A DNA stretch of 64,000 nucleotides, taken from positions 62,001-126,000 of the forward strand of contig JAHDQS010000033.1 of NCBI GenBank assembly GCA_018433675.1, in the 5' to 3' direction. The notes below the pieces were generated by a model that made no database searches, was not told the origin of the DNA, and worked only from the letters and a program-made list of their open reading frames with translations. Positions 13,625 through 17,591 of the stretch are shown here, in pieces (positions within the stretch are counted from its first letter, which is position 1; every line of letters begins with the position of its first letter). Source of the DNA: Clostridia bacterium. Its GTDB lineage: Bacteria; Bacillota; Peptococcia; DRI-13; SM3-B62. The position numbers and the translations under genes are program-made.

Positions 13625-14089
13625 TTAAACCTTAACTTTTACAATTAATTCAACCTCACAGGTCGAATCCAAAGGCAACTCATTAACACCGACAGCGCTG
13701 CGGGCATGGGCGCCCTTTTCTCCAAAAAGCTCAGCAAACAATTCCGACGCCCCGTTTGCCACCTTGGGCTGCATGTTGAAACCGGGAGCACTGTTGACAA
13801 ACACTACTACCTTAATTATTTGTTCGACTTTATCTAAATCACCCACAAGTCCTTTGACAACTCCCAGGCAGTTTAATGCACACGCCTTGGCAGCCTCATA
13901 ACCTTCTTCAATCGACATTTCTGCCCCTAACTTGCCCTTGTACTTTAACTCACCACCAACTAAAGGGATTTGCCCGGCAGTATATATCACATCGCCTGTT
14001 AAGACACCTGGGACATAAGCAGCAACCGGACTTGGTGCCTGGGGAATACTCAATCCCATTTCCGAAGCTTTTTTTTCAATTTTTGACAT
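13625..14089 (-). CDS. RidA/YjgF/UK114 family protein
   Basis: A 154-residue member of the Rid superfamily. RidA proper hydrolyses reactive 2-aminoacrylate and other imines/enamines. The ARSAVGVNELPLDSTCEVE stretch carries the Arg and Glu that are conserved in the active cleft. The length and the N-terminal MSKIEKKASEMGLSIPQAP extension resemble the longer YjgH-like subgroup rather than the 127-residue RidA, so exact activity is uncertain. The start at 14089 follows AGGAGGGAGC. Confidence 0.85.
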   Translation of the reverse strand: MSKIEKKASEMGLSIPQAPSPVAAYVPGVLTGDVIYTAGQIPLVGGELKYKGKLGAEMSIEEGYEAAKACALNCLGVVKGLVGDLDKVEQIIKVVVFVNSAPGFNMQPKVANGASELFAELFGEKGAHARSAVGVNELPLDSTCEVELIVKVKV

Positions 14090-14155
14090 AATGCTCCCTC
14101 CTATTACCATAATAAATTTTTATAACCATTCTATCATATAAATTGTTACTTTGTA

Positions 14156-15460
14156 CTATTTAGCAACGTTCGCTGAAATTTTCTCCTTATCCTTGCCCGC
14201 AAAGACTCCCGTTAAACCCATTTTCTCTACTCTGTCCCTTATTTGGTCTATATTTGTTGTATAAAGACTCTTTTCCTTCATCCGCTCAAAATAGACCGAC
14301 CCGGAAAAGGTATATTTATACCGCAAGCCTTCCTCGGTCTTCATTTGTGCACCAACGTACGCAATGGCATCACCAATAGCTAACTCAGCCGGCAGCGTTA
14401 ACAATTCACTTCCCATTGCGTAACGAGCGGCATTATGCCCGGCTAATGTCCCCGTTACAATAGCTTCAGTATGTCCAACCAAAAGTCCGGCCTTTTCTCC
14501 CGCGCAGAAAAGGTTGTCCACTCCATCTACCTTTAATTGGTTATTACGCGGCGACATCGCAAAATAACGCATCGAATTGCCGATACCACCCGCATAGGGG
14601 TCTTCGAAACGCGCGTTTTCAAACCCGGGAATCTGTCTTAGACTTTCCAAAGGATAAAACGGGGTCATCAATTTGGCATGACCGGTATCCAATAGAATCA
14701 CGTTTTCACCGAACTCTTTCAAGGCATACTGCTGACAAGCCTTTTTCTCCAAGACACCCTTTTTCTGCAGATAATCCGGTATCGGTACAACACAAACACC
14801 GGTACTGTCCAGTTCTTCAACGATCTCAGGAGAAAGCGAATCCTTATTGAGCTTACACGAACCGCTCATCGCACCAATGGAATCATCTGCTTTTTTGCCG
14901 ACCATTTCTTTCACTCCTGCTTTACCCGCCAAACTCACACGCGGACCAAAGGTCGGGCAACGGAGAATACACATGGCACACCCGTTTCCATATTTTGTGC
15001 AGTTTCCCTGGGGACCGAATGTTCCCGTCGTATCAAGAAAGACATCCCCCTCCAACACTTGACCATCTGCCGTTTTTACTGCTTTAATTTTTGTGTCTTC
15101 CATTACTGCCTCAGTCACTCTTGCCTGCAACTTTATCTCTATACCGGCATTCTTTAAGACCTTCTTAATTGCCGGCTCAATTTTGCTGACATCATACAAC
15201 CAAGCATGTTTATGACCCGGAAACTCAATATTTTTGTGACGCGCGTTTTCATCTATTGTTGTAAATATTTCCGGTGCCCCTAAAGCAATGCATTCCTCAG
15301 TGGCCGTGAAGCGTCCATTGTTCCTCATTATTCCGCCAACAAGTCCGGTTCCTAAAAGCATATCGGCTCTCTCTAATAATACTACTTCGGCCCCTAATTT
15401 CACTGCGGATACGGCAGCTGCCGTACCTGCCCATCCCCCGCCAACAATAATAACTTTCAT
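14156..15460 (-). CDS. FAD-dependent oxidoreductase
   Basis: A 434-residue flavoprotein with an N-terminal dinucleotide fold (GGGWAGTAAA) and a second FAD-contact motif near the C-terminus (NLFCAGEKAGLLVGHTEA, about residues 315-335). The middle holds a cysteine-rich patch (CTKYGNGCAMCILRCPTFG) that could bind a metal or form a redox disulfide. The general layout is like the GidA/TrmFO-related or fumarate-reductase-like flavoproteins, but I cannot fix a substrate. Either of two ATGs at 15469/15460 may be used; I prefer the second, ten bases after AGGAGG. An unknown 141-residue protein lies 35 bases upstream on the same strand. Confidence 0.8.
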   Translation of the reverse strand: MKVIIVGGGWAGTAAAVSAVKLGAEVVLLERADMLLGTGLVGGIMRNNGRFTATEECIALGAPEIFTTIDENARHKNIEFPGHKHAWLYDVSKIEPAIKKVLKNAGIEIKLQARVTEAVMEDTKIKAVKTADGQVLEGDVFLDTTGTFGPQGNCTKYGNGCAMCILRCPTFGPRVSLAGKAGVKEMVGKKADDSIGAMSGSCKLNKDSLSPEIVEELDSTGVCVVPIPDYLQKKGVLEKKACQQYALKEFGENVILLDTGHAKLMTPFYPLESLRQIPGFENARFEDPYAGGIGNSMRYFAMSPRNNQLKVDGVDNLFCAGEKAGLLVGHTEAIVTGTLAGHNAARYAMGSELLTLPAELAIGDAIAYVGAQMKTEEGLRYKYTFSGSVYFERMKEKSLYTTNIDQIRDRVEKMGLTGVFAGKDKEKISANVAK

Positions 15461-15495
15461 CGCCTTCATTCCTCCTGTCTTTTAAACCTATTATA

Positions 15496-15921
15496 CTATT
15501 TAATTAACACGATTTCCTCCAGTTCAAGCCCCATCTCAACACCCGTCCTTCTCTTTTCTGACTTAATCACAATGTTGAGGTGATTGGGCATATGTGTCTC
15601 ATCAAATCCTGCAATCTTGCCTATGGTAAGCTTTCCGATTTTTATTTCATCCCCCGTTACAATAACGGTGCCCTGCAACACTTCAAAAAAACCCACATAG
15701 GCAATTGCATTAACCTCCCTTCCCGGTCCCGCCGTATCCTCATCCGTAACTATCAGCTCGTGAATATCTCCCACTGACAGGGCTCGCGATATTGGTGTTA
15801 TCAATTGCAACCCTCTGTCTGTAATTTTGCCGTCTAAAACCACTACCAATTTCCCCAGGCAATCCCTTTTTACCGCATAAGGGTTTTGCTTAAACATTCC
15901 TTTTTCATACGGATCGACCAC
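15496..15921 (-). CDS. Conserved-looking protein of unknown function, partner of the FAD enzyme
   Basis: A 141-residue soluble protein I do not recognise. Strings such as GKLVVVLDGKITDRGLQLIT and GTVIVTGDEIKIGKLTIGKI suggest an all-beta barrel. There is no signal peptide or membrane segment. The GTG at 15921 is six bases after GGAGG and is the likely start. Its tight spacing to the flavoprotein suggests they work together. Confidence 0.6.
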   Translation of the reverse strand: MVDPYEKGMFKQNPYAVKRDCLGKLVVVLDGKITDRGLQLITPISRALSVGDIHELIVTDEDTAGPGREVNAIAYVGFFEVLQGTVIVTGDEIKIGKLTIGKIAGFDETHMPNHLNIVIKSEKRRTGVEMGLELEEIVLIK

Positions 15922-16091
15922 TTTCACCCTCCTCCCTCATCAAAGATGAGTAGTTCGTACTTTTATCTATTCTCTATTTTGCTGCAAAACTCCTGCTGCT
16001 TGCAAATATTTTTGTTCTACAATTGCATTTTACTTCATAACATGTAAAAAGAATTTTTTCTTCGGGTTTTGCGATTGGGAACATACGCTCG

Positions 16092-16271
16092 CTATCCACA
16101 TAATCCACATACTTATCCACAGGTCTGGAGCAATTGCTTCCGTAAAATCCGCTTCGTTTTCCACATTACAAACAAAAAGTGTCGATTTTCTGTCATTTTT
16201 TTATCAACACCTAGAAAATCTTTGAAACCTTTAAAAACCTGTTATGCACATAACTGTCCACATTATCCACA
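16092..16271 (+). promoter_or_regulatory. Cluster of DnaA-box sequences
   Basis: In about 180 bases of otherwise non-coding sequence the DnaA box TTATNCACA occurs exactly at 16113 (TTATCCACA), 16242 (TTATGCACA) and 16263 (TTATCCACA). One-mismatch copies are at 16092 (CTATCCACA), 16101 (TAATCCACA), 16157 (TTTTCCACA) and 16201 (TTATCAACA), and a weaker one is at 16254. All are on one strand, several at 9- or 12-base steps. No dnaA, dnaN or rpmH is nearby and gene direction does not switch here, so a DnaA-titration or regulatory cluster is more likely than the main origin. This fills the 410-base gap between the unknown gene and the CNNM gene. Confidence 0.7.
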
Positions 16272-16320
16272 ATTTCCTCATTACCGGAAGCATCAACAGA
16301 ATAAATTCCTATGATTAAAA

Positions 16321-16343
16321 CCTGCCTTAATTCATAAGGCAGG
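16321..16343. terminator. Terminator overlapping the end of the CNNM gene
   Basis: Arms CCTGCCTTA and TAAGGCAGG surround five bases, with T-runs on both strands. The last codons and stop of the CNNM gene form one side of the stem. Confidence 0.8.
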
Positions 16344-17591
16344 CTTTTTTAAACGCAACTTCGCGATGCGGTGGCCCTCCATCAGCTGGACAACCAATTT
16401 AACTCCGTTCACACGTAAACTGTCACCAACCACAGGAACACGTCCCAACTCCGCAAATACCAGTCCCCCGATAGTGTCTGCTTCCTTGCACTCAAGGTTC
16501 AAACCTAACATTTCGTTTAGTTCATCAATTCTGAGACCCGCATCGATTTCATCCGTCTGTTTATCTATTCTTATCAAAGAGGGTTCTTCAACGTCATGCT
16601 CATCCTGAATATCTCCCAGGATTTCCTCGATTAAATCCTCCATGGTAACCAATCCGGCGGTGCTACCATACTCATCAAGAACTACGGCCAAATGTATTTT
16701 TTCCTTTTTCATTTCCTTAAACAATTCATTGACCTTTTTTGTTTCAGGGACAAAAAACGTTTGGCGCAAATAATCACCGGACCTAAAGCCATTCTGTTTT
16801 TCACTATCTATTGCTATCAGATCTTTAATGTGGACAATTCCTAATATGTTATCAATATTTCCCTCATAAACGGGAATGCGGGAGAACTTTTTCGCATTAA
16901 TTATCTTCATGATGTCCGTATAAGAAACATCATTTGCGACGGCTACAATGTCGAGGCGCGGCACCATTAAATCCCTAACAACCCTATCGGAAAAATCAAA
17001 AACGCTGCGAATCATCGTTTCTTCTTCTTGATGAATCACTCCTTCTTCCTGTCCGGCCGCCACCAACCCAATTATTTCTTCCTCGGCAGGATCTCCTACG
17101 ACCGGTGACTCTTTAACGCCTACCAGCTTGGCAACAATCACGGCTACCAGTCTATTTATTTTTACTAGTGGGGACAAGACACATACCAGCACTCGTGCTG
17201 TTTTAACCATAATATAGCTTACATGTTCCGAGTTTCTGGAAACTAATACCTGGGGAATTGTTTTGGCGAAAATTATAACAACGACTGTCATAATCAATAT
17301 TGCCGACAATGCTGACATTCTGCTTTGATTACTGTTTATTATCAGAGAAGATCCCAGCACAATAGCAGACGTTAAAACCAAAGTACTCCCAATCATCAAC
17401 GCATCATAAAGCTTAACGGGTTCCTCTAAAAGCATACAAAGCTGCCTTGCTTTTGGATCCGACCCAGCTGCCAAGTGTCTTAAACGATACCTGTTCAACG
17501 ACGACAACGCTGCCTCCACACCCGCAATTAACGCAGATATGAGTAACAAAATAATAAAAAACAGCATTCGATAACAACCATCAGGGTCCAA
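16332..17591 (-). CDS. CNNM/CorC (HlyC/TlyC) family membrane protein
   Basis: A 419-residue protein with the three-part layout of the family: a DUF21/CNNM membrane domain with about four hydrophobic segments (about 10-160), a CBS pair (about 205-325, with VRDLMVPRLDIVAV and LVTMEDLIEEILGDIQDE) and a C-terminal CorC/HlyC domain. Such proteins are linked to Mg2+ or Na+ export; the older hemolysin name is not supported. The start is TTG, 11 bases after GAGGAG; an in-frame ATG eight codons later has no ribosome site. It is transcribed singly. Confidence 0.9.
   Translation of the reverse strand: MDPDGCYRMLFFIILLLISALIAGVEAALSSLNRYRLRHLAAGSDPKARQLCMLLEEPVKLYDALMIGSTLVLTSAIVLGSSLIINSNQSRMSALSAILIMTVVVIIFAKTIPQVLVSRNSEHVSYIMVKTARVLVCVLSPLVKINRLVAVIVAKLVGVKESPVVGDPAEEEIIGLVAAGQEEGVIHQEEETMIRSVFDFSDRVVRDLMVPRLDIVAVANDVSYTDIMKIINAKKFSRIPVYEGNIDNILGIVHIKDLIAIDSEKQNGFRSGDYLRQTFFVPETKKVNELFKEMKKEKIHLAVVLDEYGSTAGLVTMEDLIEEILGDIQDEHDVEEPSLIRIDKQTDEIDAGLRIDELNEMLGLNLECKEADTIGGLVFAELGRVPVVGDSLRVNGVKLVVQLMEGHRIAKLRLKKPAL

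Follow-up and report, generated by a model that had tools for sequence, protein, structure and literature searches.

A 180-bp stretch of non-coding DNA in the window (the whole 64,000-nucleotide stretch of a Clostridia genome that was analysed) carries nine DnaA boxes on the plus strand, and alignments and searches identify this array as an ancient conserved element that has kept its spacing and direction behind tsaD across much of the Firmicutes. But what would such an array be doing there? We think it likely that it is a chromosomal DnaA-box cluster (DBC) outside oriC which retains ATP-DnaA and dampens initiation, and that it corresponds in position to the cluster behind gcp in Bacillus subtilis (gcp being tsaD by established gene naming). 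In other words, the array probably limits the frequency of chromosome replication. DnaA binding at this site, its preference for the ATP form and its effect on initiation we infer from B. subtilis. The array lies in the gap 15928-16331, which has a DUF6917 gene on one side and the 3' end of a CNNM/CorC gene on the other; both genes are encoded on the minus strand. Its features are given below in window coordinates, each box being assigned by box match and alignment:

15496..15927, minus strand: DUF6917 gene on the other side of the array, a neighbour that is not constant
16077..16282, plus strand: whole conserved element (sequence model R1, 111.3 bits)
16079..16090, plus strand: left motif GAACATACGCTC, from alignments
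16092..16100, plus strand: box A1 CTATCCACA, one mismatch
16101..16109, plus strand: box A2 TAATCCACA, one mismatch, +9 from A1
16113..16121, plus strand: box A3 TTATCCACA, exact, +12 from A2
16157..16165, plus strand: box B1 TTTTCCACA, one mismatch
16166..16174, plus strand: box B2 TTACAAACA, two mismatches, +9 from B1; TTATCCACA in many relatives
16201..16209, plus strand: box C TTATCAACA, one mismatch, +35 from B2
16242..16250, plus strand: box D1 TTATGCACA, exact
16254..16262, plus strand: box D2 CTGTCCACA, two mismatches, +12 from D1
16263..16271, plus strand: box D3 TTATCCACA, exact, +9 from D2; the best conserved box (0.93)
16321..16343, no strand assigned: stem-loop flanked by an A run and, opposite it, a T run; a terminator that separates the array from the CNNM gene
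16332..17591, minus strand: CNNM/CorC-type gene (CNNM, CBS and CorC_HlyC domains), which stays beside the array throughout the order

Compared with TTATNCACA, three boxes are exact, four have one mismatch and two have two mismatches, and the start-to-start steps along the array run 9, 12, 44, 9, 35, 41, 12, 9. A preliminary description of this DNA had the exact and one-mismatch boxes right, as well as their single direction and the recurrent steps of 9 or 12, and it counted one two-mismatch box where there are two, so the total is nine boxes and not eight. Both of these weaker boxes (starts 16166 and 16254) align with good boxes in relatives. Could the clustering be accidental? When same-strand boxes are scored over any 180 bp, the array is the maximum of the window with a score of 10, against a top score of 4 in 240 simulated 64-kb windows (order-1 and order-3 Markov models). 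The clustering is far above chance, and chance is excluded. Box density in the genome was judged from pattern and model searches: there are 126 exact boxes and 98 matches to a reversed control pattern, so the boxes show no strong overall enrichment, and a search with the array model returned one other cluster only, a weaker one. Similar density in random gaps, named in the preliminary description as grounds for doubt, was found neither in the window nor in the simulations, and in the genome, as far as tested, it came down to that single cluster. A second conserved DnaA-box cluster (G000:C57:92806-92882; L275:1507-1583) is placed after the fliD-fliS flagellar operon and is followed by csp/hpf or an amino-acid transporter. 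Its spacing of about 31, 12 and 9 is much like that of C-D1-D2-D3, and it occurs in most members of the order and in family f9 (L276-L285, L287, L288, L293). Another genome of the same class (G031:C152:96700-99700, L294, about 1424-1625) has ten boxes in ~200 bp, on both strands, between two genes.

Within the order, CNNM orthologues (43-95% identical) are followed in 14 other genomes by the same array with the same spacing, which the alignment resolves into A1-A2-A3 (steps 9 and 12), B1-B2 (9), C and D1-D2-D3 (12 and 9), with an extra box about 15 bp further on in several species. Mean pairwise identity is 0.81 in the box columns vs 0.46 in the spacers (15 genomes; P ~1e-14). The distant CNNM paralogues that were tested, among the contig matches listed in the CNNM-alignment scan, have no array. 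Directly 5' of the first box most members of the order carry the left motif as GAACATAYGYYC, and it is looser in families f62 and f20 (GAACAAACCTTC / AAACACACTTTC; also read as GAACAAACCTTCGG in f62 and AAACACACTTTCGG in f20). The mean column identity of this motif is about 0.71 (columns 16080-16091) against 0.46 for the spacers; it differs between families and is absent in several. In the order, GAACATAYGYYC resembles a Firmicute SOS box. A LexA/SOS reading of the motif was not adopted because the f62 and f20 versions are not palindromic.

How far beyond the order does the array reach? A sequence-only model of it matched over nearly the full length in many further families of the phylum; at E <= 0.001, 302 of 398 sampled genomes gave a match of some kind, many of these being partial. 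TsaD was first recognised in the flanks of these matches, and a TsaD profile search then gave the positions. The array lies less than 700 bp downstream of tsaD in 63 of the 77 genomes checked (31 families; the best-scoring matches outside the order), starting 52-611 bp (median 120) after the TsaD match and with its boxes on the strand opposite to tsaD in all 63; nine further genomes have it within 21 kb on the same side of tsaD. Because the 77 genomes were picked for their best model matches, these figures tell where the array is located, not how frequent it is. When 41 arrays are aligned, the boxes stay in register and little else is kept. Two large genomes of the phylum (family f33) have no array behind tsaD.

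Elsewhere in the order the gene order is tsaD-CNNM-array, with two exceptions: family f7 has only a partial array, and in G005 tsaD is split. In the window's genome and in its relative G001, tsaD is on another contig (in the former at G000:C50:83143-84081, L297, gone from its ancestral place) and is followed directly by glnS, with no box array there; the CNNM gene, the array and the groEL, 5-FCL and RidA genes are still together. The position downstream of tsaD, either direct or with CNNM between, is one that relatives have and that is absent today in the window's genus. Two things tie the window array to the tsaD-linked ones: the match to the sequence model, and the CNNM and groEL/5-FCL genes at its side. 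As the array was kept after the loss of its tsaD partner, the DNA element itself seems to be under selection. On its other side (13625-15927) the DUF6917 gene, a GidA-like FAD oxidoreductase gene and a gene of the RidA family are packed closely together on the minus strand, and similar FAD-oxidoreductase genes with a DUF6917-like partner are found near the array in G011 and G013 (L068, L070).

The preliminary description had suggested DnaA titration, and this reading has good support: the array lies at the place where B. subtilis has a high-affinity DnaA region, downstream of tsaD (gcp). It also described the flanking genes as not being known targets of DnaA, which is true of the present neighbours but not of the ancestral one, as tsaD/gcp adjoins a known DnaA-bound region. 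The B. subtilis gene ywlC presumably corresponds to TsaC/Sua5. Two of the eight high-affinity DnaA regions of B. subtilis adjoin t6A tRNA-modification genes, gcp (TsaD) and ywlC, possibly by coincidence (PMC4447404). The region 'downstream of gcp; downstream of ydiF', one of those eight, has 10 DnaA sites and an apparent Kd of 0.15 uM with ATP and 0.33 uM with ADP, and gives 16-fold more DNA with ATP-DnaA at 55 nM (PMC4447404). Deletion of six DBCs in B. subtilis leads to early initiation (PMC5295017; PMC13220808), which is partly relieved when one cluster is put back (PMC5295017).

How would the array act as a brake? Its nine boxes (ten in some relatives) stand head to tail in four groups, A (9, 12), B (9), C and D (12, 9), and this arrangement would allow DnaA to bind cooperatively in one orientation, with ATP-DnaA preferred. 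DnaA bound to the array would be kept from oriC, braking initiation at a distance. Across 18 genomes with usable coordinates, all of one contig, which are related and whose sizes are partly rounded, the array is found 0.15-0.69 of a replichore from dnaA, with a median of 0.33 (compared with a uniform distribution, KS P = 0.02). Being mostly in the origin half, it would be copied early, so that its capacity would double soon after initiation. The genome encodes YabA, as does B. subtilis.

For simple titration neither the architecture nor the place would have to be fixed, and the conservation of both hints at a more specific role. Is the array a datA- or DARS-like site, where DnaA assembles into a specific complex, possibly with a DNA-bending partner at the left motif, that switches the nucleotide state of DnaA rather than just retaining it? 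We regard this as rather unlikely. The fixed spacing, the strand and a non-box flank motif in many genomes go beyond the demands of titration, the B. subtilis counterpart has a strong preference for ATP-DnaA (PMC4447404), and the origin-half position of most arrays would also fit. However, B. subtilis is reported to be without IHF, Hda, datA and DARS, a 2026 review gives it as unknown whether this organism has regulators that balance DnaA-ADP and DnaA-ATP (PMC13220808), and the left motif is not constant across families. The wider version of the idea, a phylum-wide nucleoprotein device of fixed geometry whose flank motif is read by a partner and which changes the ATP/ADP state of DnaA, is in our view unlikely too. 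If true, it would be a Gram-positive analogue of datA/DARS, of a kind that the same review lists as unknown (PMC13220808).

Control of the transcription of a neighbour gene by DnaA looks improbable. DnaA does act as a transcription factor at some B. subtilis clusters (PMC4447404), and in the window the DUF6917 gene has the array gap on its 5' side. But the gene on this left side varies between families (DUF6917, EtfB, RidA, radical SAM or phage-like genes), and the neighbours that do stay constant, CNNM or tsaD, face the array with their 3' ends; promoter control was rejected on both grounds. Promoter-like sites at the array were not above chance.

The preliminary description had also raised an origin, and a second or true replication origin at the array is very hard to believe. 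The box density is comparable to that of oriC, and, going by the title of a paper cited in PMC4447404, B. subtilis recruits primosome proteins to regions outside the origin that are bound by DnaA. But the gene for full-length DnaA is on another contig (G000:C7:153487-154779), in line with the earlier remark that neither dnaA nor dnaN is nearby. In this genome and in relatives conserved boxes are present in the rpmH-dnaA gap, and in the dnaA-dnaN gap a TTACTATTACTACT-type DnaA-trio-like tract comes after the boxes; judged by these motifs, the two gaps are the normal bipartite Firmicute oriC. In the one-contig relative G002 (3.805 Mb) the sampled GC skew is negative as far as 2659 kb and has turned positive by 2680 kb; dnaA, at 2669 kb, falls within this flip, and a second switch is located between 829 and 1000 kb. 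The array of G002, at 1914 kb, is inside the negative skew arm, 755 kb from dnaA, and no flip is seen there. In the window itself the skew is negative throughout, without a switch, and the array gap has no DnaA-trio-like tract. The array and the oriC of the same genomes share clustered TTATCCACA boxes; the array differs in having no trio tract, no skew switch and boxes on one strand only. With an oriC at dnaA-dnaN, a skew flip at dnaA in G002 and neither a switch nor a trio tract at the array, it was rejected as oriC.

That a structured RNA or a small gene contains the repeats by accident is scarcely credible. An 81-codon TTG-started frame crosses the array, and in some relatives T residues come after a stem-loop around box B2. 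But RNA folding found no pair and no consensus structure in 15 sequences, there was no Rfam match, the spacers diverge with no shared promoter seen, and some steps, 44 and 35 among them, cannot be divided by three, so both the RNA element and the coding frame, with its boxes out of step, were rejected.

A DnaA-box cluster that brakes initiation is a kind of element already known from B. subtilis; the phylum-wide conservation and fixed architecture of this array appear undescribed. In the literature searched, outside of which lay the primary B. subtilis cluster papers (Ishikawa 2007; Okumura 2012), we found no description of a tsaD-linked array beyond B. subtilis or of the fixed architecture, and no priority is claimed. 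The array bears on the question of how initiation is kept in check in Gram-positive bacteria when Hda, datA and DARS are missing. Across at least 31 families it has kept its boxes, spacing and strand while the neighbour genes change, which suggests that one non-oriC cluster matters over very long times, and it pinpoints the precise sequence that could be deleted, rewired or moved in many tractable species.

Among known systems, E. coli datA is likewise an intergenic box cluster off oriC, with high affinity and a negative effect on initiation. It has five boxes and needs IHF, whereas the array has nine to ten boxes on one strand and no known partner. E. coli DARS1 and DARS2 are also non-coding DnaA-box loci outside oriC. 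These sites reactivate ADP-DnaA, an activity of which the array gives no sign. The gcp-ydiF cluster of B. subtilis, to which the array is likened by position and site count, is non-coding, downstream of tsaD and off oriC, with about ten DnaA sites. The window's genus differs from it in having the CNNM gene as neighbour, tsaD having moved away. The gcp-ydiF region lies at 0.30 of a replichore, against the median of 0.33 for the arrays.
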